DNA of 64,000 nucleotides, taken from IMG/VR virus record IMGVR_UViG_3300047440_000580, positions 1 through 64,000 of that record. One strand, given 5' to 3'. A program made the position numbers and the translations under genes. Positions 24,032 to 46,819 of the stretch are shown here, piece after piece. The notes under the pieces are model-generated. The model worked only from the letters and a program-made list of their open reading frames with translations. It did no database searches and had not been told where the DNA came from. The stretch is from a virus. Each line of letters begins with the position of its first letter. The stretch's first letter is position 1.

Positions 24032-24044
24032 TATTATATCACAC
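24032..24044 (-). promoter_or_regulatory. Extended -10 promoter between glycosyltransferase genes
   Basis: The minus strand reads GTGTGATATAATAG, nine bases before ATG 24023, in the 15-base gap after the 1041-residue glycosyltransferase gene. Confidence 0.65.
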
Positions 24045-28113: not shown

Positions 28114-28121
28114 GTCTTCTC

Positions 28122-31538: not shown

Positions 31539-31613
31539 TGGTAGCGCGTAGGGGTTTTGATCCCCTTCCTTCAGGTTGAGAACCTGACAACCTAGCCAGT
31601 AGTCGAACGCGCC
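31539..31613 (-). tRNA. tRNA-Glu (CTC)
   Basis: Acceptor GGCGCGT pairs with ACGCGCT, the anticodon loop is TTCTCAA, the T-loop is of the ATCAAAA type, and CCA is encoded. It shares its acceptor and D-arm with the second tRNA-Glu at 36358, so the two are probably duplicates. Confidence 0.88.
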
Positions 31614-31621
31614 GTAAGATG

Positions 31622-31650
31622 TGCCGTCGTGGAGTCGAACCACGAACCAG
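31622..31650 (-). other. Orphan tRNA T-arm (possible tRNA remnant or split 3' half)
   Basis: A perfect T-arm (CGTGG TTCGACT CCACG) is followed by ACGGCAC like an acceptor 3' strand, but no matching 5' strand (GTGCCGT) is found in the neighbouring spacer. The remaining 80 bases up to tRNA-Cys contain hairpins but no anticodon arm that I can pair with it. Confidence 0.4.
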
Positions 31651-31733
31651 TGGCAGCAGTCCGTTCCTTTTCGCCTCCCAAGGCTACTTCAGGACAGAAA
31701 GTGGGATCTGTTGCTGGCCCGCCGGGCGGACTT

Positions 31734-31806
31734 TGGAGGCCATCCAGGGAGTCGAACCCTGCCCACGTGGTTTGCAATCACGTTTGCCCAGCCAGGACTG
31801 ACGGCC
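31734..31806 (-). tRNA. tRNA-Cys (GCA)
   Basis: Seven-base acceptor stem with one G-T pair, anticodon loop TTGCAAA read in a CGTGA stem, standard T-arm and encoded CCA. Confidence 0.9.
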
Positions 31807-31820
31807 AATGTTGACGATGT

Positions 31821-31895
31821 TGGAGCCCCCTCGGAGAATCGAACTCCGACCGCCTGATTACGAAACAGGCATGCTACCATTAGCACCAAGAGGGC
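31821..31895 (-). tRNA. tRNA-Thr (CGT)
   Basis: The anticodon loop TTCGTAA sits in a CCTGT/TCAGG stem with one T-T mismatch. T-arm CGGAG/CTCCG and encoded CCA are clear. Confidence 0.88.
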
Positions 31896-31896
31896 G

Positions 31897-31983
31897 TGGC
31901 GGAAAGTAGAGGAATCGAACCTCAGTCGTAAGACCCAAACGCTTAGCAAGCGCCGCTGGAGTTCCCAGGCCAGATTACTTTCC
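31897..31983 (-). tRNA. tRNA-Ser (GCT)
   Basis: Perfect acceptor GGAAAGT/ACTTTCC, anticodon loop TTGCTAA and a long variable arm as expected for serine tRNAs. CCA is encoded. It ends one base before the Thr tRNA. Confidence 0.9.
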
Positions 31984-32041
31984 AAACCTACCTGGCCTGC
32001 GAGCCAGGTGTCCTAGAAGTCGCAGCCCCTAGGATCTTCAG

Positions 32042-32109
32042 TCGCTCAGGTGAGAATCGAACTCACTGCGCTGGGCTTATGAGGCTCAGCTGGTTCCAAA
32101 CCCAGAGCG
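32042..32109 (-). tRNA. tRNA-Met (CAT), no encoded CCA
   Basis: Anticodon loop CTCATAA in a TGAGC/GCCCA stem, T-arm GTGAG/CTCAC, acceptor CGCTCTG against CTGAGCG with one mismatch. The 3' end reads A-CTG rather than CCA. It could be an elongator Met or an Ile tRNA whose C34 is modified. Confidence 0.75.
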
Positions 32110-32110
32110 G

Positions 32111-32198
32111 TTGCGGGGGTAGGAGTTGAACCTACCATTGCAAGCGTTAGCTCGCGAGGGGTATGAGCCCTCATTGGCCACCTGGGCCTGTCCCCGCT
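32111..32198 (-). tRNA. CAT tRNA with initiator-like anticodon stem and a long variable arm
   Basis: The anticodon arm GAGGG CTCATAC CCCTC has three G-C pairs at the loop, as in initiator tRNAs, and the first acceptor pair is an A-A mismatch, another initiator trait. Unlike any normal Met tRNA it has a variable-arm hairpin of 16 bases (GCGAGC/GCTTGC). The T-loop is TTCAACT and no CCA is encoded. Confidence 0.65.
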
Positions 32199-32210
32199 AT
32201 AACTTGAAAC

Positions 32211-32284
32211 TGGAGCCCCGGGAGAGAGTCGAACTCTCGATTCCTCCTTACCAAGGAGGCGGTTTGCCGTTGACCTACAGGGGC
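32211..32284 (-). tRNA. tRNA-Thr (GGT)
   Basis: Anticodon loop TTGGTAA in a perfect CCTCC/GGAGG stem, T-arm GAGAG/CTCTC, acceptor with one mismatch, CCA encoded. Confidence 0.9.
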
Positions 32285-32367
32285 ATTCTCGAACACCTAC
32301 GAACGCTTCAGAGCCTTCCCAACCACCTAGGCCATGGATGTACCTGGCCTGGTGTCACAACACTTCG

Positions 32368-32443
32368 TGGAGCCCCCGGTGAGAATCGAACTCACGTCCC
32401 AGGTTTACAAGGCCCGTATTCTTAGCCACTGAACTACGGGGGC
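32368..32443 (-). tRNA. tRNA-Thr (TGT)
   Basis: Perfect acceptor GCCCCCG/CGGGGGC, anticodon loop CTTGTAA in a CGGGC/ACCTG stem with one end mismatch, normal T-arm, CCA encoded. Third threonine isoacceptor in the array. Confidence 0.86.
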
Positions 32444-32503
32444 GATGCGGCTGGGTTCGCGGGCAAGACCACGACCACTTAGCTCCCTGGCGTCGGGAGT
32501 ACC

Positions 32504-32578
32504 TGGAGCGGGTAGCGGGAATCGAACCCGCCATTTCTGGTTGGAAGCCAGACGTGTTGCCACTAGCACTACACCCGC
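32504..32578 (-). tRNA. tRNA-Gly (TCC)
   Basis: Anticodon loop CTTCCAA in a TCTGG/CCAGA stem, GCGGG/CCCGC T-arm, acceptor GCGGGTG/TACCCGC, CCA encoded. Confidence 0.9.
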
Positions 32579-32583
32579 AAAAT

Positions 32584-32681
32584 TGGGAAGATCGGCCGGT
32601 ATCGCACCGGGCCAGGACGTCTCCCGGCTCATCGCGTTTTCGGATTCACAATCCGCTGACTTTTCGTAGTCCACGACCTTC
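32584..32681 (-). tRNA. tRNA-His-like (GTG) with expanded variable arm
   Basis: The acceptor AAGGTCG/CGATCTT has a G at -1 opposite C73, the specific mark of histidine tRNAs, followed by CCA. The anticodon loop is TTGTGAA. It differs from a normal tRNA in a 28-base variable region with a six-pair hairpin, a five-base D-loop and a T-loop TGCGATA. A more regular tRNA-His lies at 38336. Confidence 0.65.
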
Positions 32682-32683
32682 AG

Positions 32684-32754
32684 AGCGGGATGCGGGAATC
32701 GAACCCGCGCTTCAGGCTTGGGAAGCCCGTTCGCTACCACTACAACAATCCCGC
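32684..32754 (-). tRNA. tRNA-Gly (CCC), no encoded CCA
   Basis: Perfect acceptor GCGGGAT/ATCCCGC, anticodon loop TTCCCAA in a CGGGC/GCCTG stem, perfect GCGGG/CCCGC T-arm. The 3' end is T-CTG, so CCA must be added after transcription. Confidence 0.88.
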
Positions 32755-32875
32755 AACGTGTGACAACCGGCTTTGACCCCTTGCAAGGGGGTTCCCACGC
32801 CACATCCCGCTGGATAATCGCGAATCACCAGACGAGAAGGCCGGCCAAGCTTTAAGACCTCCAAAAGGGCCACAC
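32755..32875 (-). other. 121-base spacer with tRNA-like hairpins, not resolved
   Basis: The ends GTGTG/CACAC are complementary, and a perfect ACCCC-CTTGCAA-GGGGT hairpin looks like an Ala (TGC) anticodon arm, but I find no T-arm. It may be a degenerate, split or rearranged tRNA. Nothing else is seen here. Confidence 0.35.
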
Positions 32876-32949
32876 TGGTGCGGGTAGAGAGAATCGAACT
32901 CTCGCTTCGGACTTGGCAAGCCCGTTCGCTACCATTACAACATACCCGC
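32876..32949 (-). tRNA. tRNA-Gly (GCC)
   Basis: Perfect acceptor GCGGGTA/TACCCGC, anticodon loop TTGCCAA, T-arm GAGAG/CTCTC and encoded CCA. Confidence 0.92.
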
Positions 32950-32953
32950 GAAA

Positions 32954-33021
32954 TGGAGGGGACCCGACGGCTCTCACGTCTTCGAGCGGTTGGGCGCCGC
33001 CAGGTGTTTCCCACTGTCCCC
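32954..33021 (-). tRNA. Compact tRNA-like gene ending in CCA, anticodon uncertain
   Basis: Acceptor GGGGAC/GTCCCC ends in T-CCA and a GGCGG/CCGCT stem carries the loop CGCCCAA (CCC if read at the usual place, with G instead of U33). The D-loop is only five bases and the T-arm (GACG/CGTC, loop TGAGAGC) lacks TTCGA. The length of 68 with CCA is very short. It may be a minimal or decayed tRNA. Confidence 0.45.
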
Positions 33022-33022
33022 G

Positions 33023-33097
33023 TGGTCTGAGAGGTGGGATTCGAACCCACGGCCTCCTGGCTCCAGACCAGGCCGTCTACCGCTGACTTACTCCCAG
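33023..33097 (-). tRNA. tRNA-Pro (TGG)
   Basis: Anticodon loop TCTGGAG in a perfect CCTGG/CCAGG stem, T-arm GTGGG/CCCAC, acceptor CTGGGAG/CTCTCAG, CCA encoded. Confidence 0.88.
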
Positions 33098-33154
33098 ATG
33101 ATGCCCTGTTCGTCCCACCACACTGCGTGGGCACTGCGTCCAGGCTACGTAGAG

Positions 33155-33227
33155 TCGGGATGGTGAGTTTCGATCTCACGACCTCGTGTCCCCCAGACAC
33201 GCGCGCTCCCAGCTGCGCCACACCCCG
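33155..33227 (-). tRNA. tRNA-Pro (GGG), no encoded CCA
   Basis: Anticodon loop CTGGGGG in a perfect CGTGT/ACACG stem with G37, as is usual for proline. The T-loop is ATCGAAA and the 3' end is A-CTC. Confidence 0.82.
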
Positions 33228-33236
33228 TTGCTGAAT

Positions 33237-33311
33237 TGGTCTGGATGGGTGGAATCGAACCACCTACGTCCTCGCTCCGAAGGAGGGTGTCTACCAATGA
33301 CTTACATCCAG
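33237..33311 (-). tRNA. tRNA-Pro (CGG), first copy
   Basis: Perfect acceptor CTGGATG/CATCCAG, anticodon loop TTCGGAG in a CCTCC/CGAGG stem with one mismatch, T-arm GGTGG/CCACC, CCA encoded. Confidence 0.85.
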
Positions 33312-33312
33312 A

Positions 33313-33383
33313 TGGTCCCGAATGCCGAGTTGAACGGCTCCCCCGGTTTGACCCGGTGTGCTGACGTTACACTAACTAAGGGA
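33313..33383 (-). tRNA. Degenerate tRNA, possibly Leu (CAA)
   Basis: It has a T-arm (GCCG TTCAACT CGGC), a D-arm-like segment and encoded CCA, but only four acceptor pairs are firm and the anticodon arm CCGG-GTCAAA-CCGG closes on six bases. CAA is the most natural anticodon reading. It abuts the next tRNA with no spacer. Confidence 0.45.
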
Positions 33384-33460
33384 TGGTCGGAAATACACGA
33401 TTCGAACGTGCGGCCTCTCGGACCCGAACCGAGCGCTCTACCAGGCTGAGCTAATTTCCG
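33384..33460 (-). tRNA. tRNA-Pro (CGG), second copy
   Basis: Perfect acceptor CGGAAAT/ATTTCCG, anticodon loop TTCGGGT (G37) in a perfect CTCGG/CCGAG stem, CCA encoded. It duplicates the specificity of the copy at 33237 with a different body. Confidence 0.85.
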
Positions 33461-33464
33461 GGAC

Positions 33465-33842
33465 TTACAACTTTGAAGGCATCAGAGGGGGGAGGGCTGG
33501 AGGGACATTGTCTGTTGCAACGCTCCCGTCCGTTTCGCTTGGCCCTTCCCAGATGGTGCCGTATCCTTGCCTGTACGCCATGTCCAGGACCTTCTGCATC
33601 TTGGCGCAGTTTTCCTTGGTCATGCTCGTGCAGTCCCACCCCATGTCGTGCTCCCAGCCGAGCTGGAACACGTACTTGAAGGCGGTCCAGACTCGCTTCC
33701 AGAATCCCTTCCAGTTGCGGTGCTGGTAGTGAAGAGTCATGCCGATCTCGACGTCGTACTCGGCGACGGCCATGTGACCCTTGGTCCCACAGTCGCACTC
33801 GATGTACTCACGCGTGATCTCTACTTGAGGCTTCACTTTCAT
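33465..33842 (-). CDS. Unknown protein encoded within the tRNA array
   Basis: The 125-residue protein has a CDCG motif near residue 16 and an aromatic middle (FWKRVWTAFKYVFQLGWEHD). No family is recognised. Its ATG overlaps the encoded CCA of the upstream tRNA-Gln (CCATG), with GGGGG in the tRNA acceptor as the only ribosome-site-like sequence, so tRNA maturation and translation of this gene exclude each other on one transcript. Confidence 0.72.
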   Translation of the reverse strand: MKVKPQVEITREYIECDCGTKGHMAVAEYDVEIGMTLHYQHRNWKGFWKRVWTAFKYVFQLGWEHDMGWDCTSMTKENCAKMQKVLDMAYRQGYGTIWEGPSETDGSVATDNVPPALPPLMPSKL

Positions 33843-33916
33843 GGTTCCCCCACAACGGTTCGAACGTTGATCGTCTGAGTCAGAGTCAGGTGTCCTGCCA
33901 GTTGGACGATAGGGGA
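33842..33916 (-). tRNA. tRNA-Gln (CTG)
   Basis: Anticodon loop CTCTGAC in a CTGA/TCAG stem, T-arm CAACG/CGTTG, and encoded CCA whose last base is the first base of the next gene's ATG. Confidence 0.88.
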
Positions 33917-33920
33917 ATAA

Positions 33921-34733
33921 CTATTCTTCTACGAGCTCCGAGAAATCCTCGGGCTTGGCATTCTTCGCGTCTTCGCAGCTCTTCATGAGCTCCTTCTCCT
34001 TCTCGTCGCGACGATTGGGAGACCAGAAGAAGCAGAGCTCGTTGAAGAGTCCGTAGAGGAACTCGCCGAGCTCGTAGGTGACGCGGACGTCCGTGTTCTC
34101 GTAGCCGTCCGTCGTCCTGTCCGAGACCCAACTGAGCCCGCGCTCAAACTTCTTGGAGCCCTTCCGCTTGAAGCCCATCTTCTTGGGCTTCTGCTTCTTC
34201 CACTTGTGCTTGCACAGCACCACGGTCTGCTTCATCGTGAGAGGCAGGTTGAGCAGGTAGGCCCAGGGCGTGAATTCGATCGCGTAGGAGTTTCCACGCT
34301 TCTCCAAGGGTACGTCCTCGCATCCTTCCTCCCAGTATGCTCCGATTCCGTGAGCAGAGACCGTATGGTCCTGCATGTCCCATTTCTCGATGTCGTCGTA
34401 GTTCGACATCTCGTAGTACTTGTAGACTTCGATCGCCGTCAGCTTCGACTTGCGGTCGGGGTCGCGCTTGGCCACCACGTTCTCGTCCTTGAGGTACTCG
34501 TCCAGGTTCGCGTGACAGAGCTTCGCGACCAGGTCCAGCACCAGCGGATCGAACTTCTTGAGGACGGCGACCAGATCCTTCAGCCGGACCTTGCCCTTGA
34601 TCTCCAGGCCGTGGTGCCAGGCTTCGAGGAAGAGGTGAGTCGTGGTGTTGATCTTCCACGTCTTGTACTTCTTCTTCTTGCCGTCCCACTCGCTGGCCCA
34701 GAACCCGTCCTTCTTGAGGATGACTTTGTCCAT
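33921..34733 (-). CDS. Unknown 270-residue protein within the tRNA array
   Basis: The protein is charged and mixed helix/strand with a Lys-rich middle (KKQKPKKMGFKRKGSKKFER) that could bind nucleic acid. No family is recognised. Its ATG follows directly on the CCA of tRNA-Arg (CCT), and the ribosome site AGGAG, five bases upstream, is the tRNA's own acceptor strand TAGGAGT. The tRNA-Gln gene begins four bases after its stop. Confidence 0.78.
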   Translation of the reverse strand: MDKVILKKDGFWASEWDGKKKKYKTWKINTTTHLFLEAWHHGLEIKGKVRLKDLVAVLKKFDPLVLDLVAKLCHANLDEYLKDENVVAKRDPDRKSKLTAIEVYKYYEMSNYDDIEKWDMQDHTVSAHGIGAYWEEGCEDVPLEKRGNSYAIEFTPWAYLLNLPLTMKQTVVLCKHKWKKQKPKKMGFKRKGSKKFERGLSWVSDRTTDGYENTDVRVTYELGEFLYGLFNELCFFWSPNRRDEKEKELMKSCEDAKNAKPEDFSELVEE

Positions 34734-34809
34734 TGGTACTCCTATCCAGAGTCGAACTGGAATCCCACCCTTAGGAGGGGCGTGCTCGGATCCATTGAGC
34801 TATAGGAGC
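34734..34809 (-). tRNA. tRNA-Arg (CCT)
   Basis: Acceptor GCTCCTA/TAGGAGT, anticodon loop CTCCTAA in a CGCCC/GGGTG stem, T-arm CCAGT/ACTGG-type, CCA encoded and immediately followed by the ATG of a CDS. Confidence 0.88.
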
Positions 34810-34821
34810 ATTATACCACAG
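34809..34821 (-). promoter_or_regulatory. Extended -10 motif abutting tRNA-Arg
   Basis: The minus strand reads CTGTGGTATAATG. The TATAAT ends one base before the tRNA, so a start at the normal distance would fall inside the acceptor stem and remove the tRNA 5' end, while leaving the CDS at 33921 intact. Confidence 0.55.
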
Positions 34822-34823
34822 AT

Positions 34824-35270
34824 TCATTTCTTTGTAACGGCAATCGCATACATTTCGCCGTTTGGCTTACGCCACCTGCGGAGAAGGCCTCTGATATCTA
34901 GTACGTGGATACCATTTTCCCGCTTGTTCTTTTTCGTCCGCTCGGAGTCCACGATCAAGAACCTGTCCCCGATCGTGCAGGCGATCACCGCCCAGTGGGT
35001 GTCCCCGTCGCAGGCCATGATGAGAGGGCATCCCTTGCCGAGGTACTTCTTCAGGGCCGCCTTGGCGTGGGTGGCCTTGGTCGTCTCGTACACCTCTGAA
35101 GTGTAGCCGAGGTGATCCAAGGCATTCAACACCCCTGCCTCCGTGGTGCCGTCGTCGTCCGTGCCGGCGAGCTGGCGTAGACGGTGTTCCCCGACATTCT
35201 TCCCGAAGAGCTTCAGGACGTTCCGGATGGACGCCGCCCCGCATGAGTTCTTCGTCTCCTGGAACCTCAT
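34824..35270 (-). CDS. C39-like cysteine peptidase
   Basis: The 148-residue protein starts with MRFQETKNSCGAASIRNVLK, where Cys10 fits the nucleophile of papain-like C39 peptidases, and has THWAVIACTIGDRFLIVDSE with the His and Asp of the triad. Such single-domain proteins process leader peptides in bacteriocin systems or act as phage host-takeover proteases. No ABC transporter is attached. It lies between tRNA-Arg genes. Confidence 0.8.
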   Translation of the reverse strand: MRFQETKNSCGAASIRNVLKLFGKNVGEHRLRQLAGTDDDGTTEAGVLNALDHLGYTSEVYETTKATHAKAALKKYLGKGCPLIMACDGDTHWAVIACTIGDRFLIVDSERTKKNKRENGIHVLDIRGLLRRWRKPNGEMYAIAVTKK

Positions 35271-35280
35271 ACGATAAATA

Positions 35281-35356
35281 TGGTCTCCTCGGAGGGATTC
35301 GAACCCCCACCCCTGGGCTTAGAAGTCCCGGATCTGGCCACTTGAATTACGAGGAG
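35281..35356 (-). tRNA. tRNA-Arg (TCT)
   Basis: Perfect acceptor CTCCTCG/CGAGGAG, anticodon loop CTTCTAA in a stem with mismatched end pairs, CCA encoded. Confidence 0.85.
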
Positions 35357-35357
35357 G

Positions 35358-35432
35358 TGGTGGAGCCACCGGGAATCGAACCCGGGTCTGAACCTTGCGA
35401 AGGTCCCGTTCTACCGCTGTCACTATGGCCCC
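35358..35432 (-). tRNA. tRNA-Ala (CGC)
   Basis: Acceptor GGGGCCA/TGGCTCC, anticodon loop TTCGCAA, T-arm CCGGG/CCCGG, CCA encoded. Its 5' end overlaps the last ten bases of the neighbouring CDS. Confidence 0.92.
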
Positions 35433-35668
35433 GTGAAGAACTCTTCGAACTTGTCCAGAACCAGACTTTCCGAGCGGTCGTACTTCTCGCAGAAACCGTC
35501 TTGGTGGACGCTGAGGAACCGCGTCTCTTTGTGCTTCGCGTGTTCGTAGGTGTTCTCGGCGCAGTAGCCGAAGTTCCCTAGGGGGAAGTCACCGTGTCGA
35601 CATGTTTTGCACGTAGGACTGATTCGGTACTTCAACTCCCGCAACACTTTCAGCTTGTTCTGGTCCAT
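35423..35668 (-). CDS. Small cysteine-rich protein in the tRNA array
   Basis: The 81-residue protein has four cysteines (CKTC near residue 20, C near 35, C near 60) that could bind a zinc or Fe-S centre. Its ATG shares a base with the CCA of tRNA-Val (CCATGG). No family is recognised. Confidence 0.68.
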   Translation of the reverse strand: MDQNKLKVLRELKYRISPTCKTCRHGDFPLGNFGYCAENTYEHAKHKETRFLSVHQDGFCEKYDRSESLVLDKFEEFFTGP

Positions 35669-36143
35669 GGTGTCCCCGGATGGAATCGAACCATCGTCTC
35701 CACCTTGTCACGGTGGTGTGCTCCCATTTTACCACGGGGACTTCTTTTTGTACAACGGTCATGATGATCGGCTCGAACCCGTTGTGCTTCAGGAGTCGCG
35801 CGGTCTTGATCGTCAGATCTACACATCCTCGCCAGATGCCTGGGTCGGACGCCTTCCTCTTGATCACCCAGCGTCTTCCGACGTTGGCGCCGTAGGGCCC
35901 GTGGTCGACCACCTTGGCCACTACCACCTTGCCTGTCCGGGGGTTTTCGAGCTTCACCCGGGTGCCGCAGGGGAGGTCCCTGTGGGCGATCCCGATGTCG
36001 TCCGGTCCGAGCTCTCTGTGGAGGCAGACTGCTTCGCCTCCCTTCAGTTCGTCGTCCTCCCATCCGAAGATCGATGCGTTGCACGGAGTCGGGGGAGGGG
36101 GCGCGCTCATGAAGAGAGCGATCAAAGCTGTCAGTAGATCCAC
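35589..36143 (-). CDS. RlpA-like double-psi beta-barrel protein with signal sequence
   Basis: From GTG 36143 the 184-residue product begins MDLLTALIALFMSAPPPPTP, a signal-peptide-like start, then has GEAVCLHRELGP, LPCGTRVKLENPRTGKVVVA and VDHGPYGANVGRRWVIKRKA (residues about 33-100), the DPBB core of RlpA/expansin-type cell-wall proteins. It probably acts in the periplasm on peptidoglycan, for example in lysis. The frame stays open through the whole tRNA-Val gene (35668-35741) and stops only at 35589, so its C-terminus is read from tRNA sequence and overlaps the next CDS. Confidence 0.72.
   Translation of the reverse strand: MDLLTALIALFMSAPPPPTPCNASIFGWEDDELKGGEAVCLHRELGPDDIGIAHRDLPCGTRVKLENPRTGKVVVAKVVDHGPYGANVGRRWVIKRKASDPGIWRGCVDLTIKTARLLKHNGFEPIIMTVVQKEVPVVKWEHTTVTRWRRWFDSIRGHHGPEQAESVAGVEVPNQSYVQNMSTR
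35668..35741 (-). tRNA. tRNA-Val (GAC)
   Basis: Perfect acceptor GTCCCCG/CGGGGAC, anticodon loop GTGACAA in CCACC/GGTGG, T-arm GATGG/CCATC, CCA encoded. The gene lies fully inside the open frame of the RlpA-like protein and its CCA overlaps the next ATG. Confidence 0.9.
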
Positions 36144-36169
36144 ATCGGACCAGCCTTTCTGCCTGAGAG

Positions 36170-36244
36170 TGGTGGAGCTAACGGGGGTCGAACCCGTAAT
36201 ACCGGTCTGCCGAACCAGCGTGTTCCCATTAGCACTATAGCCCC
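36170..36244 (-). tRNA. tRNA-Ala (GGC)
   Basis: Acceptor GGGGCTA/TAGCTCC, T-arm ACGGG/CCCGT, CCA encoded. The loop TCGGCAG has C rather than U at position 33, which is unusual. Confidence 0.82.
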
Positions 36245-36273
36245 ATTGTAACACGGAAACTTCTAAAAGTAAA

Positions 36274-36348
36274 TGGTGCCCTCCCACGGAACCGACCCGT
36301 GATCCCTGGGGTTTCAATCCAGTGCTCTTCCGATTGAGCTAAGAGGGC
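36274..36348 (-). tRNA. tRNA-Phe (GAA)
   Basis: Anticodon loop TTGAAAC in a CTGGA/CCCAG stem, acceptor AGAGGGC-type pairing, CCA encoded. The T-loop is GTCGGTT, off the TTCGANN consensus. Confidence 0.85.
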
Positions 36349-36357
36349 ATGATGAAG

Positions 36358-36433
36358 TGGTGACGCGTATGGGTTTTGATCCCATTCCTCCTGCTTGAAA
36401 GGCAGGCCACCTAGCCAGTAGTAAGAACGCGCC
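36358..36433 (-). tRNA. tRNA-Glu (TTC)
   Basis: Anticodon loop CTTTCAA in a perfect CCTGC/GCAGG stem, T-arm ATGGG/CCCAT, CCA encoded. Body closely matches the tRNA-Glu (CTC) at 31539. Confidence 0.9.
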
Positions 36434-36434
36434 G

Positions 36435-36512
36435 TGGCCCCACGTACGGGAATCGAACCCGTCTTCCTCTTCCGTGACAGGGAAGTGCCGCCTGCCAGGC
36501 GGCTCACATGGG
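36435..36512 (-). tRNA. tRNA-Asp (GTC)
   Basis: Anticodon loop CTGTCAC in a perfect CTTCC/GGAAG stem, T-arm ACGGG/CCCGT, CCA encoded. The D-arm is a six-pair stem GCCGCC/GGCGGC with a short loop TGGCA. Confidence 0.86.
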
Positions 36513-36518
36513 AAATCT

Positions 36519-36617
36519 TGGTACCCCCGTAGGGAATCGAACCCTAGTCGTCACGCTTAAAAGGCGTGCTTCCGTCGCTGCCCTTAGGTGAGCAGGCCGT
36601 ATCCATCGGGCGGGGGC
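36519..36617 (-). tRNA. tRNA-Lys (TTT) with oversized D region
   Basis: Acceptor GCCCCCG/CGGGGGT, anticodon loop CTTTTAA in a perfect CACGC/GCGTG stem, normal T-arm and CCA. The D region is about 42 bases instead of about 18 and contains its own CTGC/GCAG stem, so there may be an insertion. Confidence 0.75.
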
Positions 36618-36618
36618 A

Positions 36619-36708
36619 TGGTACACGCGCTAGGGATCGAACCTAGTCTGAGCCGGTAATCTGCCGGAAAGGATCTATAAGGTCCCTCTGACTCCAAGTC
36701 TCGCGTGC
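36619..36708 (-). tRNA. TAT-anticodon tRNA with long variable arm (Ile-type anticodon)
   Basis: Acceptor GCACGCG/CGCGTGT with encoded CCA, T-arm CTAGG/CCTAG. The anticodon loop centres on TAT and the variable arm is a CCGG/CCGG hairpin. Long variable arms belong to Leu, Ser and Tyr tRNAs, so a TAT (Ile, codon ATA) reading on this body is odd. Confidence 0.65.
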
Positions 36709-36709
36709 G

Positions 36710-36785
36710 TGGTGAACCAGGTGGGGGTCGAACCCACAGCCAATGGATTAAGAATCCACTGCTCTGCCAGTTGAGCTTCTGGTCC
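36710..36785 (-). tRNA. tRNA-Lys (CTT)
   Basis: Anticodon loop TTCTTAA in a GTGGA/TCCAT stem, T-arm GTGGG/CCCAC, acceptor GGACCAG/CTGGTTC, CCA encoded. Confidence 0.9.
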
Positions 36786-36788
36786 AAA

Positions 36789-36871
36789 TGGTCCCCCGAC
36801 TGGGAATCGAACCCAGATCACACGGCTTAAGAGGCCGGTCGATGTGCCGTTAGGCTTCCAATCATCGGGCC
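36789..36871 (-). tRNA. Second Lys (CTT)-like tRNA with long D region
   Basis: Anticodon loop CTCTTAA, perfect T-arm CTGGG/CCCAG and encoded CCA. The last two acceptor pairs do not match and the D region is about 26 bases. Confidence 0.62.
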
Positions 36872-36879
36872 AGGGGATG

Positions 36880-36958
36880 TGGCGTATCCTCTAGGAATCG
36901 AACCTAGCTTGACGTGAGTTAACAGCTCACCGCAATCAACCAGACATGCCAAGGATAC
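36880..36958 (-). tRNA. tRNA-Asn (GTT), first copy
   Basis: Perfect acceptor GTATCCT/AGGATAC, anticodon loop CTGTTAA in GTGAG/CTCAC, CCA encoded. Confidence 0.92.
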
Positions 36959-36962
36959 AAAG

Positions 36963-37038
36963 TGGCTCCAGGGGCAGGCTTCGAACCCGCATCTTCTCCA
37001 TTAACAGTGGAGCGGCTTACCAGTTAGCCTACCTTGGA
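36963..37038 (-). tRNA. tRNA-Asn (GTT), second copy
   Basis: Anticodon loop CTGTTAA in a perfect CTCCA/TGGAG stem, T-loop TTCGAAG, acceptor TCCAAGG/CCCTGGA, CCA encoded. Same specificity as the previous gene, different body. Confidence 0.88.
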
Positions 37039-37039
37039 A

Positions 37040-37117
37040 TGGTACCCCAGACGGGATTCGAACCCGCACATCCTGCGGTCTGAACGCAGTGACTCCTACC
37101 AATTGGTCTACCGGGGC
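37040..37117 (-). tRNA. tRNA with Leu (CAG) anticodon on a short-variable-loop body
   Basis: Anticodon loop TTCAGAC in a perfect CTGCG/CGCAG stem, encoded CCA and a D-loop with AATTGG. The variable loop is only five bases, whereas bacterial leucine tRNAs have a long arm. Confidence 0.82.
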
Positions 37118-37201
37118 AAATGCAGGGGCGTGCTACACATCATACACCAACTCGTGCATAGAGGTCACGAGTCCTGGGTCGGTCCAGGTTCTCCCCTTCT
37201 G

Positions 37202-37276
37202 TGCTCTTGATGAGATTCGAACTCACACCTGTCAGCCTTCTCAGGACTGTGCCTCTACCAATTGGGCTACAAGAGC
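37202..37276 (-). tRNA. tRNA with Leu (GAG) anticodon on a short-variable-loop body, no CCA
   Basis: Perfect acceptor GCTCTTG/CAAGAGC, anticodon loop CTGAGAA in CAGTC/GGCTG, T-loop TTCGAAT. Variable loop about six bases; 3' end A-CAG. The 84 bases upstream of it in the plus map (37118-37201) hold three hairpins but no tRNA that I can fold with confidence. Confidence 0.8.
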
Positions 37277-37315
37277 GTCGCCGGTGTTTTAGCTGCTTTA
37301 CCGGTAGCAGTATAG

Positions 37316-37394
37316 TGGTACACCCGGCGGGATTCGAACCCACACTGTTCCTGATTCGTAGTCAGGTGGCCTATCCAGTTGGCCGGACGGGTGC
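37316..37394 (-). tRNA. tRNA-Arg (ACG)
   Basis: Anticodon loop CTACGAA in a perfect CCTGA/TCAGG stem, acceptor GCACCCG/CGGGTGT, CCA encoded. Confidence 0.9.
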
Positions 37395-37395
37395 A

Positions 37396-37473
37396 TGGTG
37401 TCCCTGGCGAGATTCGAACTCGCACTGATCCACCTTCGGAGGGTGGTGGCCTATCCAGTTGGCCGACAGGGAC
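37396..37473 (-). tRNA. tRNA-Arg (CCG)
   Basis: Perfect acceptor GTCCCTG/CAGGGAC, anticodon loop CTCCGAA in CCACC/GGTGG, T-arm GCGAG/CTCGC, CCA encoded. It ends six bases from the RNase P RNA. Confidence 0.92.
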
Positions 37474-37478
37474 AAATT

Positions 37479-37760
37479 GAAGTGGAACGTAAGCGGGGTT
37501 CTGTTCAAGAACGATCATTCGTCTGGGATGACTGTCACCAGTCACCTCTAGCTCTCAACCCGTCAGCATCGGCCGGACCAGCCCCTGACTGCTCGAGATT
37601 GCTCCAGATGGACTCCCCCGTTTCAGCCGAGCATTACCTCGGTTCGTCTCTGTTGAGAGTATCTCCAGGTCACCCCGGACCAGTCGTTAGCTGGCATCCT
37701 GTCCTATGGAGCCCCGACTTTCCTCTGGTTTGCGAAGCCAGCGATCGTTGCATCCACTTC
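37479..37760 (-). ncRNA. rnpB: RNase P RNA (bacterial type), phage-encoded
   Basis: All five conserved blocks of bacterial RNase P RNA are present in order. P1 is a perfect GAAGTGGA/TCCACTTC stem at the two ends. CR-I is GAGGAAAGTCGGGGCTCC (37708-37725), CR-II ACAGAGACGAACCGAGG (37637-37653), CR-III GGAGTCCATCTGGAGCAATC (37597-37616), CR-IV AGACGAATGA (37515-37524) and CR-V ACAGAACCCCGCTTA (37490-37504). In P4 the usual GTCCGGG/CCCGG pair is changed to GTCGGGG/CCCCG on both sides, a compensated change that argues for a functional helix. A TGGTCC motif (37575-37580) sits in a P15-like loop and could pair with tRNA CCA ends. Length is 282 bases, at the short end for type A. It lies among tRNA genes it would process. 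Confidence 0.94.
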
Positions 37761-37766
37761 AAAACT

Positions 37767-37840
37767 TGGTAGTCCCTGAGGGAGTTGAACCCACGTAGAC
37801 GGTTTGTAGGACCGCCACTCTACCGTTGAGTTAAGGGACC
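37767..37840 (-). tRNA. tRNA-Val (TAC)
   Basis: Anticodon loop CCTACAA in a GCGGT/ACCGT stem (C at position 33), T-loop TTCAACT, acceptor GGTCCCT/AGGGACT, CCA encoded. It starts six bases downstream of the RNase P RNA. Confidence 0.84.
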
Positions 37841-37847
37841 GAAAAAA

Positions 37848-37942
37848 TGCAGGTTGGCTCGCCGTCGACGTTGTCCCGAAGGAGACGGTAGAGCGGATTA
37901 CCCGGATGCTCTGCATCCCAGACTCACGAGGTCTGACCTGCA
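37848..37942 (-). ncRNA. 95-nt structured RNA with four helices and a U-tract
   Basis: The ends form a perfect seven-pair stem TGCAGGT/ACCTGCA followed by T6. Inside are CAGAC-CTCGTGA-GTCTG (five pairs, seven-base loop, like a T-arm), GGATGC-AGA-GCATCC, and a long arm GCTC/GAGC with CCGTC/GACGG and a TCC-TTCG-GGA tetraloop hairpin. The helix order resembles a rearranged cloverleaf like the permuted tRNA nearby, but no TTCGA or anticodon is seen. Function unknown. Confidence 0.7.
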
Positions 37943-37945
37943 AAT

Positions 37946-38019
37946 TGGTACGCCATGAAGGAATCGAACCCTCGTCACCCGGTAATCGGCCAGGCGCACT
38001 ACCATTGTGCTAACGGCGC
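37946..38019 (-). tRNA. tRNA-Ile (GAT)
   Basis: Anticodon loop CCGATTA in a CCTGG/CCGGG stem; positions 33 and 37 are C and T, both unusual. Acceptor and T-arm pair with G-T wobbles and CCA is encoded. Confidence 0.78.
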
Positions 38020-38033
38020 ATGAGAGAAAAGAC

Positions 38034-38104
38034 GGCCGGCGTCCTTCCGCTAGACTACCAGGGACCGAGGTCCCCGGGCGGGATTCGAACCCGCGTTTCC
38101 GGCC
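38034..38104 (-). tRNA. Circularly permuted tRNA (3' half before 5' half)
   Basis: On the transcript the 3' half comes first: anticodon-stem strand GGCCGG, variable AAAC, T-arm GCGGG TTCGAAT CCCGC, acceptor strand CCGGGGA, then a short linker, then the 5' half: acceptor strand TCCCTGG, D-arm TAGTCTAGCGGAAGGAC and anticodon-stem strand CCGGCC. The two acceptor strands pair over seven bases and the two anticodon-stem strands over six, so the halves belong together. The break lies in the anticodon loop. The body resembles Glu tRNAs. The anticodon is not resolvable without knowing the join; flanking bases are CTG before and GTC after. Both neighbours are intact tRNAs. Confidence 0.75.
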
Positions 38105-38107
38105 CAG

Positions 38108-38181
38108 TGCTTGCAGAGAGATTCGAACTCTCAGGAAGGTAGGTTTGAGCTACCTATGTCTACCTGTTGCATCATGCAAGC
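38108..38181 (-). tRNA. tRNA with Leu (CAA) anticodon on a short-variable-loop body, no CCA
   Basis: Perfect acceptor GCTTGCA/TGCAAGC, perfect anticodon stem GGTAG/CTACC with loop CTCAAAC, T-arm GAGAG/CTCTC. Variable loop five bases; 3' end A-CTG. Confidence 0.82.
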
Positions 38182-38262
38182 GATGCGAATACCCGGCCCC
38201 AACCCGTCGCCGGTATTCTGACAGTCCCCACCCTAGACTGTCTTGCCCAGTGCTGAGGAAAT
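38182..38262 (-). other. 81-base spacer with two perfect hairpins
   Basis: It contains GACAGTC/GACTGTC and GAATACC/GGTATTC, each seven pairs. No T-arm or anticodon arm is visible, so it is either a processing spacer or a small RNA. Confidence 0.4.
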
Positions 38263-38334
38263 TGGCATGTGCTGTAGGAATCGAACCCACTCCTGGAGTT
38301 TTGGAGACTCTTTGGACACCATGTCCTAGCACAT
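38263..38334 (-). tRNA. tRNA-Trp (CCA)
   Basis: Perfect acceptor ATGTGCT/AGCACAT, anticodon loop CTCCAAA, CCA encoded. Confidence 0.88.
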
Positions 38335-38335
38335 A

Positions 38336-38411
38336 TGGGGTGATCGACGGGGTTCGAACCCGCGCTACGTGATCCACAATCACGCGTGCTTCCTGTTACA
38401 CTACGAACACC
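38336..38411 (-). tRNA. tRNA-His (GTG)
   Basis: Perfect anticodon stem CGTGA/TCACG with loop TTGTGGA, C73 opposite an encoded G at -1, and CCA encoded. One acceptor mismatch. Confidence 0.87.
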
Positions 38412-38414
38412 ATA

Positions 38415-38500
38415 TGGTGCGCGGGCTGAGAGTCGAACTCAGCTGCCACGAGGGAACCGGTTTACAGCCGGCCCAGGGAACCGTCCCTGTCGTCCCGCGC
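38415..38500 (-). tRNA. tRNA-Tyr (GTA)
   Basis: Perfect acceptor GCGCGGG/CCCGCGC, anticodon loop CTGTAAA, long variable arm as in bacterial Tyr tRNAs, CCA encoded. A GCGGCC-TTCG-GGCCGC hairpin lies just upstream at 38505-38520. Confidence 0.9.
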
Positions 38501-38557
38501 ATATGCGGCCCGAAGGCCGCTTCATCGTCAACTATTCGATTGTCAAGTACTGCTCAG

Positions 38558-38628
38558 TGGAGCCGACGGGAATCGAACCCGCCACGGTCTGCTTGCAAGG
38601 CAGTCCTGTCACCTTGAATCTCGACCCC
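38558..38628 (-). tRNA. tRNA-Ala (TGC), no encoded CCA
   Basis: Anticodon loop CTTGCAA in a CTGC/GCAG stem, acceptor GGGGTCG/CGGCTCC with wobble pairs, T-loop TTCGATT. 3' end A-CTG. Confidence 0.83.
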
Positions 38629-38641
38629 AAGAAACCAAATC

Positions 38642-38732
38642 TGGCGGAAGAAGGAGGTCTCGATCCCCAGCCGACTCACGCCGACCACACCGCTTTCGAA
38701 ACGGGTCCCAGTCCAAACCGGGTTCTTCTTCC
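38642..38732 (-). tRNA. tRNA-Ser (CGA)
   Basis: Perfect acceptor GGAAGAA/TTCTTCC, anticodon loop TTCGAAA, long variable arm, CCA encoded. Confidence 0.88.
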
Positions 38733-38734
38733 AG

Positions 38735-38822
38735 TGGCGGAGAGAGGAGGTATCGATCCCCAGGCGCTTTCACGCTCGAGCCGCCTTCCAAGCGGTCCCG
38801 GTCCCTGACCGGTTCTCTCTCC
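38735..38822 (-). tRNA. tRNA-Ser (GGA)
   Basis: Perfect acceptor GGAGAGA/TCTCTCC, anticodon loop TTGGAAG in CCGC/GCGG, long variable arm, CCA encoded. Body close to the neighbouring Ser tRNA. Confidence 0.88.
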
Positions 38823-38823
38823 G

Positions 38824-38909
38824 TGGCGGAGGGCGGAGGATTCGAACCCCTGCCTGACGGTACCATCCCGGTGTTCAAAGCCGGTCGCAGTCCAACTGCG
38901 GCACCCTCC
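38824..38909 (-). tRNA. tRNA-Ser (TGA)
   Basis: Acceptor GGAGGGT/GCCCTCC, anticodon loop TTTGAAC in a CCGG/CCGG stem, long variable arm, CCA encoded. Fourth Ser isoacceptor in the array. Confidence 0.88.
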
Positions 38910-38914
38910 GTTTT

Positions 38915-39088
38915 TTATTCTCCGATCACCCCCTTCGCTTCATCATCCAGCGGCAGCAGTCTGTCCCGGTGCCGCGCCATCTTTCGTTTTCCGTCCGTGA
39001 CGATGAAGAGTCCGGTCGAGGTCGGTCCACTGAGGATCTCGACCTCGATGTTCCCTTCATCATCCACCCCGAAGGTTAGGGCCTTCAT
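38915..39088 (-). CDS. Small unknown protein at the array's upstream end
   Basis: The 57-residue protein starts at ATG 39088 in an ATGA overlap, with GAGG five bases upstream. It is a small beta-type protein (MKALTFGVDDEGNIEVEIL). No family is recognised. Confidence 0.65.
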   Translation of the reverse strand: MKALTFGVDDEGNIEVEILSGPTSTGLFIVTDGKRKMARHRDRLLPLDDEAKGVIGE

Positions 39089-39579
39089 CAGGACCTCGCG
39101 AGGTACCCCTTCACGATGTGGTCGGCAGCGTGGCTTGCAGCCCATGCGTCCGGCTTGATCACCGCGTTGAAGCCCTGCCCGAGAACCAGGCCCACCATCT
39201 CCTGCACGACATCCGAGGACTTGTACTGCGTGTCCGGGTTGGCGTCGATGTGGATGGTCAGCTTGTTGGCCTCCGGGATCTCCGAGTTGAGCTCCATGCC
39301 GAGCTCGACGGACATCCAGGCTTCCTTCAAGAGCCTCTCCCTCAGCGACCGGATACGAGTCATCCGCTCACGGCTGAAGAAGCACCGACCTCCCTTGCCC
39401 GGGGTGAGGATGATCACCACCGTGATGTACTCCGTCACGTTCCCCGCGTTCTGCGAGTCCGTGCCGATGACGAGTTCACGGTCCGGCGATTCAGCCATCA
39501 GGGCCCGTATCTCGGCCTTGAGGTCCACCGTCTTCTTTCCTACCATCGTCTTCCAGGTCTTCTCGATCATGGTCGCCAC
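39088..39579 (-). CDS. RNase H-like protein, YkuK/DUF458 type
   Basis: The 163-residue protein has LVIGTDSQNAGNVTEYITVV near residue 33 (first acidic residue), KLTIHIDANPDTQYKSSD near residue 105 and IKPDAWAASHAADHIVKG at the C-terminus, the pattern of the YkuK family, which has an RNase H-like fold. Its place beside the tRNA array is suggestive of RNA work, but no activity is established for the family that I can cite. Confidence 0.78.
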   Translation of the reverse strand: MATMIEKTWKTMVGKKTVDLKAEIRALMAESPDRELVIGTDSQNAGNVTEYITVVIILTPGKGGRCFFSRERMTRIRSLRERLLKEAWMSVELGMELNSEIPEANKLTIHIDANPDTQYKSSDVVQEMVGLVLGQGFNAVIKPDAWAASHAADHIVKGYLARS

Positions 39580-39600
39580 CTTTCCTGTGTAGCCTGGTAC

Positions 39601-39675
39601 TGGTTCCGAGAGAGGGACTCGAACCCCCGCCGCCCTGGTTCAAAGCCAGGTGTCCTGCCGTTAGACCATCCCGGA
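39601..39675 (-). tRNA. tRNA-Gln (TTG)
   Basis: Anticodon loop CTTTGAA in a perfect CCTGG/CCAGG stem, acceptor TCCGGGA/TCTCGGA, CCA encoded. It is the rightmost tRNA of the array. Confidence 0.9.
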
Positions 39676-42575: not shown

Positions 42576-44180
42576 CTAGAAGGGCTCTTCCATCTCCATG
42601 TCGCTGGTCAGGTGCTTCGGGAACATGTGCCCCCACTTCTCGAGCATGTCGAGGTAGCACTCGTCCAGGATGTAGGTGGCCGTGAAGTCCGTCTCCGAGC
42701 GGACGCAGCGTCCCATGGCCTGGGCGAGCGCCCGGACGGTCCGCCAGTTGTACCACTCCCGGTCCGAGCTCATCTTGGCCTTGACGACCGGGTCTCCCAT
42801 GTTCGGGTACGGGACCTTGCAGATGATCTGGAAGCGACCGAGGTCGTCCCGAAGGTCGAGCCCCTCAGTCATGCCGGGAGAGACGATGACGGTCGGGTCC
42901 GGGCTCTTCATGTGCCGATTGATGATGTCCTTCCGGTCGTTCGCGTTCTTCTGGACCAGGAGCCGCTTGTTCGTGATCTTGCCGACTTCCTTGGTGATCT
43001 CGTAGTTGGCGGTGTGGATGATCCCCTTCTCATTGGGGTGGGCGTCCAGGATGCGCTTGATGGCCCTGCCGATGAGCGGGAGGGACTGGTCGATCCCCTG
43101 CCTGGACATCTTACCCACCGGTCGGAAGTGCACACCGAACGACTTCGGTGAGAACGGGGTGGGGATGGAGATGAAGCCCGCGTCCGCCGGAAGACCGGCG
43201 CTCCGGGTGAAGACGTCCTTGTCGAGGATCGTTGCCGACATGAGGAGGACGCGTTGCGCCTGGCTGTAGAGGATGTCGTTTGCCAGCCCCGCAACCTCCA
43301 GCGGCTGGTAGGAGATCGTCTGCCCGCCCTGGTCCCAGTTCGTCAGGATGGTGCCACCCTTGTCCAGGATGCGGTTGATCTGGCACAGACGCTTGTCCAG
43401 CATCTCGTTGTCCTCGGCGATCTTCTCGAGCGCCCCGGGACCGAGGTTCTTGCCGAACATCTCGATGAGCTTCTTGGCCACCTTCTCCATCTTGTCGAGA
43501 ATGGTCTTCTTGTACTCGCCGCCCAGCCAGTCGATCAGCTTCTGGGGAGAGGTGCCGAACTTGGGGAGCTCCAGGTTGAGCTTGCCCGCGTCCTTCCAGT
43601 CGACGTTCACGGTCGCCCAGCGACGGACCTCGTCCTCGATGTTGTGGGCCTCGTCGAGCACGAGCAGGTGCCGCTTCGGCAGTTGACCGGCGTAGACGGA
43701 CTCCGAGAAGAAATAGGAGTAGTTCGTGATCCCGAGGGGACCTTCAGCGAACGCTTTCTTGGCCTCTCGGTACGGGCAGCTGCTGCAGGCCAGTCGAGGA
43801 TCGAAAGTCTCGCCCTGGACCTTCATGAAGGCCGTCCGGACTCGGGAAGTGGCCGCGCAAGTCGGACCGAGCTTGGGATGGACGCAGGGGAAGTTCGCCG
43901 CGGACCGCAGGTCTCGCGCGTGGGAGAAGTCCTTGACGTACTGGTCCTGAAGGATCTTCTGCGAGGTGAGGACGACGGCCCCGGGCTTGTAGGGATCCAC
44001 CGGTTCCTCGATGGACGCCAGCCACCCGGCCATCGTCACCGCGATGGCGGACTTGCCGACACCCGTGCCAAGCTCAGCGAGGAGGACCCGCTTGCCGGCT
44101 AGAGCGTCTTCGCAGAGTTGATCGAGCGCCCGAGCCTGGTCGGGACGTGGTTCCTTGAGCGGAAAGTATGGTCTCCACAT
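42576..44180 (-). CDS. XPD/DinG-type superfamily 2 helicase
   Basis: The 534-residue protein has Walker A AELGTGVGKSAIAV near residue 36, DEAH-type LVLDEAHNIEDEVRR near residue 175, MSATILDK, PGMTEGLDLRDD and QAMGRCVRSETD (motif VI). Four cysteines between residues 98 and 142 (CVH...CAAT...CSSC) fit the Fe-S cluster of DinG/XPD helicases, which unwind DNA 5' to 3'. The ATG lies only six bases after a TATAAT motif and has no ribosome site, so it is predicted to be leaderless. Confidence 0.87.
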   Translation of the reverse strand: MWRPYFPLKEPRPDQARALDQLCEDALAGKRVLLAELGTGVGKSAIAVTMAGWLASIEEPVDPYKPGAVVLTSQKILQDQYVKDFSHARDLRSAANFPCVHPKLGPTCAATSRVRTAFMKVQGETFDPRLACSSCPYREAKKAFAEGPLGITNYSYFFSESVYAGQLPKRHLLVLDEAHNIEDEVRRWATVNVDWKDAGKLNLELPKFGTSPQKLIDWLGGEYKKTILDKMEKVAKKLIEMFGKNLGPGALEKIAEDNEMLDKRLCQINRILDKGGTILTNWDQGGQTISYQPLEVAGLANDILYSQAQRVLLMSATILDKDVFTRSAGLPADAGFISIPTPFSPKSFGVHFRPVGKMSRQGIDQSLPLIGRAIKRILDAHPNEKGIIHTANYEITKEVGKITNKRLLVQKNANDRKDIINRHMKSPDPTVIVSPGMTEGLDLRDDLGRFQIICKVPYPNMGDPVVKAKMSSDREWYNWRTVRALAQAMGRCVRSETDFTATYILDECYLDMLEKWGHMFPKHLTSDMEMEEPF

Positions 44181-45466: not shown

Positions 45467-45659
45467 TGCTCGGATCGCGCGTCAAGTCCTGGACCTCGGG
45501 CAGTCCGAAGATGAGCGTCCCTTCGTCGAAGATGTCCTTCTGGCGGAGCATGCGGATCCCGTCCTCCTTGAAGAGCTCGAGAGCCCGCTCGTACTCGGAC
45601 TCGTCGAAGGAGGCGTAGCCGGACCCACTCTTGAAGACGACCTTGTAGCGCATGTTCAT
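45456..45659 (-). CDS. Small unknown protein after RtcB
   Basis: The 67-residue protein starts at ATG 45659, overlapping the RtcB stop (ATGA). It has a short beta/helix layout and is unrecognised. Coupling to rtcB suggests a shared use. Confidence 0.65.
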   Translation of the reverse strand: MNMRYKVVFKSGSGYASFDESEYERALELFKEDGIRMLRQKDIFDEGTLIFGLPEVQDLTRDPSNEN

Positions 45660-46819
45660 CCCTTCACGCAGAGCACTTGCTTCAGCTCTGCCACGATCTC
45701 CACCAGGTCGGACTGGTTCGCCATGACCTGATCGATGTCCTTGTAGGCGCCCGGGATCTCGTCCAGGACCGCCTCGTCCTTCCGGCACTCGACGCCCGCC
45801 GTCTGGGCGATCATGTCGTCCAGCGTGAACGAACGCTTGGCCTTGCCGCGGCTCATCCGGCGGCCCGCCCCGTGGGACGCGCTGCAGAACGACTCCGGGT
45901 TACCGACTCCCCGAACGATGTAGGACTTGGTTCCCATCGATCCCGGGATGATGCCGAGCTCTCCGGCCTGGGCCGAGATCGCCCCCTTGCGGGTCACGAT
46001 CAGGTCCTCACCGAAGTGGTTCTCCTCCGACACGTAGTTGTGGTGACAGAGGATCGGCTTCTCGAACTTCACCTTCCCGAAGTGCTCGATCATGATCTGC
46101 TTGTAGATTTCGAACATGGCCTTGCGGTTCAGGAACGCGTACTCTTGCGCCCAGTACAGGTCGTGCCGGTACGCCTCCATCTCCGGGGTCCCAGCCAGGA
46201 AGACCGCGAGGTCCTTGTCCGGGAGGCCCGTGTTGTGGGTCAGCTTCTGGGCGACCGCCATGTGGATCTCGGCCAGGGTCTTGCCGATGTTCCGGCTGCC
46301 CGAGTGGAGCATCATCCACACGTTTCCCTCGGTGTCCAGGCAGAGCTCGATGAAGTGGTTTCCGCCACCGAGCGTACCCACCTGCTTCCGGGCCTTGCCC
46401 TCGAGGTCACGGACCCCACGGCTCAGGTCGCCGAACTTCCTGAAGAGGTCGTTGGACGCCTTGACCACGGCGTTGGTGTGCTCGTTGAACCCGACCGGGA
46501 TCCGCTCCTCGAGGTCGAGGCGGATGCGCTTCAGGCTGTCCGGCAGGTCGCTGGCCTTCAGGTCCGTCTTGATCGCTCCCATGCCGCAGCCGATGTCGAC
46601 TCCCACGGCCGCCGGCGAGACCGCGCCCTTCATGGCGATGACGGACCCGACGGTCGCGCCCTTGCCGAAGTGGACGTCGGCCATCGAGGCCACGTGGTGG
46701 AAGACCCACGGCAGGGCCGCGATGTTCTTCAGTTGGTCGAGGGCGACCGACTCTACCTCGTGGATCGGTGCCCAGAGGTGGATCGGTACGTTCTTCCCGT
46801 TCAGCAATGCGATTGACAT
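45656..46819 (-). CDS. rtcB: RtcB-type RNA ligase
   Basis: The 387-residue protein has all RtcB motifs: VGVDIGCGMGAIKT near residue 72 with the metal-binding Asp and Cys, GGGNHFIELC near residue 150, HSGSRNIGK, HHNYVSEEN near residue 255, GIIPGSMGTKSYIV and SASHGAGRRMSR with the His that takes the GMP. RtcB joins RNA ends bearing 2',3'-cyclic or 3' phosphate to 5'-OH ends; it repairs cleaved tRNAs and seals spliced tRNA halves in archaea and animals. Here it could counter host tRNA-cutting defences or join the halves of the permuted tRNA at 38034. Confidence 0.95.
   Translation of the reverse strand: MSIALLNGKNVPIHLWAPIHEVESVALDQLKNIAALPWVFHHVASMADVHFGKGATVGSVIAMKGAVSPAAVGVDIGCGMGAIKTDLKASDLPDSLKRIRLDLEERIPVGFNEHTNAVVKASNDLFRKFGDLSRGVRDLEGKARKQVGTLGGGNHFIELCLDTEGNVWMMLHSGSRNIGKTLAEIHMAVAQKLTHNTGLPDKDLAVFLAGTPEMEAYRHDLYWAQEYAFLNRKAMFEIYKQIMIEHFGKVKFEKPILCHHNYVSEENHFGEDLIVTRKGAISAQAGELGIIPGSMGTKSYIVRGVGNPESFCSASHGAGRRMSRGKAKRSFTLDDMIAQTAGVECRKDEAVLDEIPGAYKDIDQVMANQSDLVEIVAELKQVLCVKG

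Follow-up and report, generated by a model that had tools for sequence, protein, structure and literature searches.

Introduction

RNase P, a near-universal core ribozyme, has been regarded as cellular and organellar. In fungal mitochondria the RNase P RNA, RPM1, is encoded beside tRNA genes. Archaeal type A RNase P RNA lacks helices P13 and P14, which are not universal among RNase P RNAs, and the RNA from Pyrobaculum lacks nearly the whole specificity domain (PMC4919922). Self-cleaving conjugates of a pre-tRNA and RNase P RNA have been engineered in the laboratory (Frank, Harris and Pace 1994, according to the passage of PMC11143913 that cites them). Phages encode theta ribozymes, which adjoin phage tRNAs, are HDV-like and self-cleaving, and act in tRNA 3' processing (PMC10879173). 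RNase P is not mentioned in a survey of huge phages (PMC7162821) or in two overviews of jumbo phages (PMC13282480, PMC7824862), and an Rfam run on circular megaphages reported only tRNAs and a tmRNA (PMC8172020). A search of the full-text literature, with subscription journals and most preprints outside its reach, returned no report of a phage-encoded RNase P RNA, and the occurrence of such RNAs in phage tRNA arrays has apparently gone unnoticed.

The RNA described here lies in a stretch of 64,000 nucleotides (the window) of the IMG/VR record IMGVR_UViG_3300047440_000580. It shares P1-P5, P15-P18, P6, the J15/16 GGU, P7-P10 and P12 with bacterial class A RNase P RNA (RF00010, the E. coli M1 RNA type) and differs from it in being phage-borne, in lying in a tRNA array, in its length of 284 nt, and in having neither a cognate rnpA nor P13/P14. 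It resembles archaeal type A RNA in the missing P13/P14; however, the archaeal type lacks P18 and has several proteins, whereas the window RNA has P18 and finds its best match in the model for bacterial class A. The shortest of the phage RNAs reported below appear, like the Pyrobaculum form, to lack nearly the whole specificity domain. Like RPM1, the phage RNA is encoded near tRNAs, but RPM1 belongs to an organelle and is partnered by a large protein of another kind (RPM2). As in the engineered conjugates, ribozyme and substrate tRNA are on one transcript, here a predicted one; unlike in those conjugates, tRNA-Arg follows the natural 3' end of the phage RNA and cleavage in cis is only putative. 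Theta ribozymes are likewise phage-encoded ribozymes for tRNA maturation, a role that is putative for the RNase P RNA, but they differ from it in fold, in self-cleavage and in the tRNA end on which they act.

A phage tRNA array contains a full-length RNase P RNA

We ran cmscan over the whole window and found a match to RF00010 (bacterial RNase P RNA, class A; gathering score 100 bits) at 37761-37474 on the minus strand, with 166.9 bits, an E-value of 4.7e-52 and coverage of model positions 1-367 of 367, untruncated. The original prediction, made from the sequence alone, had placed an RNase P RNA within a tRNA array at this site and named an Infernal search with Rfam models as its check. The match, which includes P4 and CR-V, and the tRNA genes on both sides confirm that claim. 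The predicted minus-strand segment of 282 bases (37479-37760) had the correct strand and ends within one base; measured from P1 end to P1 end, the RNA occupies 37478-37761 (284 nt) and is followed by a 4-nt 3' trailer. The features of the array are:

31539-39675, minus strand: array of 35 tRNA genes, all on the minus strand (ARAGORN)
37767-37840, minus strand: tRNA-Val(uac), 5 nt upstream of the RNA, with an encoded CCA end (ARAGORN)
37474-37761, minus strand: phage RNase P RNA (rnpB-like), class A without P13/P14 (full RF00010 model)
37396-37473, minus strand: tRNA-Arg(ccg), beginning 4 nt past the P1 end (ARAGORN)

ARAGORN thus bore out the two predicted neighbours, whereas the predicted spacing of six bases on either side did not hold: 5 nt (37766-37762) follow the CCA of tRNA-Val and 4 nt (37477-37474) precede G1 of tRNA-Arg (37473). 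CCA is encoded by 30 of the 35 tRNAs, and several neighbouring tRNAs are 1 nt apart, as in multimeric precursors. No sigma-70-like promoter or minus-strand terminator was found around the RNA. A gene for a PF04308 RNase H-like protein also lies among the tRNA genes (39088-39579, minus strand).

The IMG/VR record that contains the window has 73,655 bases and is probably a fragment. The following genes, among others, accompany the array:

3864-5732, minus strand: baseplate wedge protein (phrog_219, 2.7e-23)
42576-44180, minus strand: DNA helicase, phage-type (phrog_2488, 1.1e-93)
45656-46819, minus strand: RtcB RNA ligase (tRNA repair), same strand as the RNA (PF01139, 9.3e-125; phrog_1075, 6.7e-139)

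Because it encodes a baseplate wedge protein, the record belongs to a contractile-tailed phage. Glycosyltransferases are also encoded in the window; one protein of 1041 aa (24039-27164, minus strand) carries three different glycosyltransferase domains in one chain, and a nucleotide-sugar epimerase (27175-28410) adjoins it. RnpA (PF00825) was found neither in the window, as originally noted, nor in the full 73,655-base record. None of the records tested, those of 450-500 kb included, yielded an RnpA over the threshold in a search that detected PF00825 in 10 of 14 control genomes. As even records of 450-500 kb contain no detected RnpA, borrowing of the host protein is the natural inference.

The catalytic domain is complete and the specificity domain reduced

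The main helices, named by the established class A nomenclature, are:

37753-37761, minus strand: P1, 5' strand, 9 of 9 pairs with 37478-37486; 7 of the 9 pairs double-changed among nine phages
37478-37486, minus strand: P1, 3' strand, pairs with 37753-37761
37712-37720, minus strand: P4, 5' strand in CR-I (AAGU-CGGGG, bulged U), 8 of 8 pairs with 37491-37498
37491-37498, minus strand: P4, 3' strand in CR-V (CCCCGCUU), pairs with 37712-37720
37701-37704, minus strand: P6 pseudoknot, 5' strand GGAC, pairs with GUCC at 37575-37578 in L17
37575-37578, minus strand: P6 pseudoknot, 3' strand GUCC in L17, pairs with 37701-37704

The catalytic domain has all of its elements, namely P1, P2, P3, P4, P5, P15, P16/P17, P18 and the P6 pseudoknot; the presence of P6, P16, P17 and P18 marks the RNA as class A rather than class B. 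The GGU motif, which reads the 3' CCA of tRNA, is present in J15/16 as GACGGGUUGAGAG. The window element, in a phage, is a class A RNase P RNA of full length and with its structure intact. Two details of the original prediction stand: the end stem P1 is perfect, with nine pairs (37761-37753 with 37486-37478), and the compensated change in P4 (AAGU-CGGGG/CCCCGCUU) is real, one C-G pair being flipped to G-C with the U bulge retained and 8 of 8 positions paired. Its five conserved blocks are present in that the full model is matched, but not all are canonical. The specificity domain retains P7-P10 and P12 and a core of ACAGAGA/CUGAAA, with ACAGAGA instead of ACAGAAA, and CR-IV is altered. There are no residues in the P13/P14 stretch of the RF00010 model, and clade relatives (see below) also lack these helices. 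With its smaller specificity domain and changed CR-IV, the RNA could be less active or act on other substrates. Minimum free energy folding gave a z of -1.93, weak evidence by itself.

The flipped P4 pair also occurs at 16 bacterial genome loci, mainly in Acidimicrobiia and Clostridium and in one genome of the Deltaproteobacteria. That bacteria share it argues for its maintenance rather than a viral origin and, because these bacteria are unrelated, it assigns no host to the phage. None of the 16 loci has a tRNA beside rnpB in stretches of up to 8 kb.

Related RNAs are found in the tRNA arrays of other phages

We scanned IMG/VR for patterns of the CR-V and CR-I motifs and then applied the Rfam model to whole records. 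The search of other viral genomes that had been proposed with the original prediction thereby found RNase P RNA, one per record, in 47 of 50 chosen records (contigs of up to 497 kb), a fraction that is not a prevalence because the records were chosen for the motif. The curated score was exceeded by 38 of the 47 matches. About 31 distinct phage RNase P RNAs lie inside tRNA arrays on the strand of the tRNAs, and for about 10 of them roughly 0-9 nt separate the RNA from the adjoining tRNA on either side. Marker genes (terminase PF03237 and baseplate phrog_219) identify only part of these records as viral, so the viral status of the remainder rests on the IMG/VR classification and the tRNA arrays. 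A CCA-adding-type enzyme (PF01743) is encoded in 11 of 32 records tested. Isolated rnpB copies without tRNAs (L047, L048, L055 and similar IMG/VR contigs) were excluded, being probably or plainly of bacterial origin.

In a maximum-likelihood tree the window RNA pairs with that of L030 (support 100/99) within a phage-only clade that also contains L003, L009, L042, L052, L056, L070 and L106, with weaker support (84/88). A homologue of the window helicase is encoded in the records of six of the eight clade relatives (L009, L042, L052, L056, L070 and L106). Other phage RNAs fall into several separate groups of the tree, so that acquisition on more than one occasion is likely, although the tree resolves its deep branches poorly and may misplace some of the long ones.

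Cultured phages carry shortened forms

An isolate-phage search, at the sensitivity of blastn, led to Microbacterium phage A3Wally (MZ150783), in which an unannotated form of the RNA, about 215 nt long, lies at about 93855-94070 with a tRNA gene on either side. It is 97% identical to the contig behind L133, and copies 88-92% identical to it are present in Big4, Zooman and one further record. The RNAs of Big4 (L300:2506-2726) and Zooman (L301:2501-2721) match the RNase P model at 51-53 bits, below the curated score. Their P4 has changed from AAGU-CCGGG/CCCGGCUU to AGUU-CCGGG/CCCGGGCU, so that letters universal elsewhere are altered on both strands with pairing kept. These altered letters suggest that the role of the RNA may differ in some phages, and this P4 may be either a test of what catalysis tolerates or a step toward the loss of catalysis. 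No RnpA was found in A3Wally, Big4 or Zooman.

In IMG/VR, L156/L033, L151/L133, L150/L089 and L152/L054 have RNAs of about 200-260 nt in which the specificity domain is mostly missing or replaced. The RNA of L033 is 97.6% identical to that of L021 over 124 nt but has about 80 nt less in the stretch from CR-I to CR-V. Found many times and free to shrink, the viral copy provides a natural experiment to tell which elements the ribozyme cannot do without. Not all database matches were kept: 'Microcystis phage MaAM05' (MW495066.1, L302), whose rnpB is ordinary and has FabI, EngB and GlyS around it, looks bacterial, and rnpB matches in 'Acinetobacter phage MD-2021a' and in plasmids, some of the plasmid records being chromosome-sized, were likewise excluded as of probable or plain bacterial origin.

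The phage RNAs are under selection for structure

The structure derived from the window RNA was applied to nine phage RNAs and compared with shuffled controls; as the sequences are not independent, the numbers in this section are indicative. Paired cells amounted to 83.1% (67.7% when shuffled), double changes occurred at 51 of 82 pairs (30.8 when shuffled), and covariation was 0.466, compared with 0.182 for shuffled sequences and 0.06-0.09 for slid partners. P4 was fully paired in 51 of 57 sequences, counting canonical and flipped forms in a set that includes some probable bacterial copies, and L260 has a further compensated P4. The P6 complement was present in 24 of 26 class-A-like phage RNAs through many different 4-mers, compared with 49% when partners were swapped between sequences. 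Strong covariation of the helices and a P6 rebuilt in many ways indicate that the phage RNA is under structural selection. The original prediction had argued from one compensated P4 pair that the RNA is not a decayed copy; covariation across nine phages, covariation in P6 and the pairing of P4 give that claim a much stronger basis, and its overall interpretation is supported for the window RNA.

Proposed function and alternatives

We consider it probable that the phage RNA is a working ribozyme that relies on the RnpA of the host, processes the tRNAs of the phage and is itself released by those same cuts. The RNA would be transcribed within the polycistronic tRNA array and join the host RnpA protein, and the complex would cut the 5' leaders of phage tRNAs, leaving dozens of phage pre-tRNAs less tied to host RNase P alone. 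Its own 5' end would be set by 3' processing of the upstream tRNA-Val and its 3' end by RNase P cleavage at the downstream tRNA-Arg. As the cut at tRNA-Arg would give the ribozyme its own 3' end, release could be self-reinforcing: molecules initially liberated by the RNase P of the host could then liberate more. The RtcB of the window and the PF01743 enzyme of other records fit a phage-run programme of tRNA maturation. A viral RNase P RNA further suggests that the takeover by phages extends past tRNAs, synthetases and CCA addition to the maturation of tRNAs as such. We also favour, with rather less assurance, the broader reading that large phages are a hitherto unrecognised second reservoir of RNase P RNAs, self-releasing, embedded in arrays, lacking rnpA and spread over several lineages, some of them about 200-240 nt long without a normal specificity domain, that mature phage tRNAs with the host protein. 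With cultured phages of Microbacterium foliorum at hand, the question can already be put to laboratory test.

The loss of P13/P14 in the window RNA and its clade, and of most of the specificity domain in some phages, would also suit a true RNase P ribozyme selected for other or relaxed substrates, such as phage or host mRNAs, tmRNA, antisense RNAs or odd phage pre-tRNAs, which a remodelled specificity domain would permit. We regard this as unlikely, since a position flush with tRNAs across many lineages indicates tRNA processing. It is very unlikely that the RNA is a decoy that titrates host RnpA, blocks host RNase P and stops host tRNA maturation. The lack of RnpA in the phage and the altered, otherwise universal P4 letters of Big4 and Zooman agree with such a role, but a decoy could dispense with P4, P6, P15 and the GGU loop, all of which are kept and covarying, and it would also harm the 35 tRNAs of the phage itself.

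A passenger rnpB, captured accidentally by a tRNA array prone to recombination and drifting there, would account for the patchy distribution and for close relatives that lack the RNA; deep phage-only clades with strong covariation make this highly improbable. Host DNA contamination or a chimeric assembly has precedents among IMG/VR and phage records with rnpB that look bacterial, MaAM05 for example. For the window we rejected it as scarcely credible, given array tRNAs within 5 nt of the RNA, phage genes on both sides, no rnpA, and the same arrangement in finished isolate genomes.

It counts against the proposed function that not every phage of this kind requires an RNase P RNA: over the stretch covered, none was detected in L225 or L227, whose RtcB proteins are 68-73% identical to that of the window. 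Both carry a tmRNA (L225:1078-1468, L227:7180-7555) within large arrays of 35-38 tRNAs.
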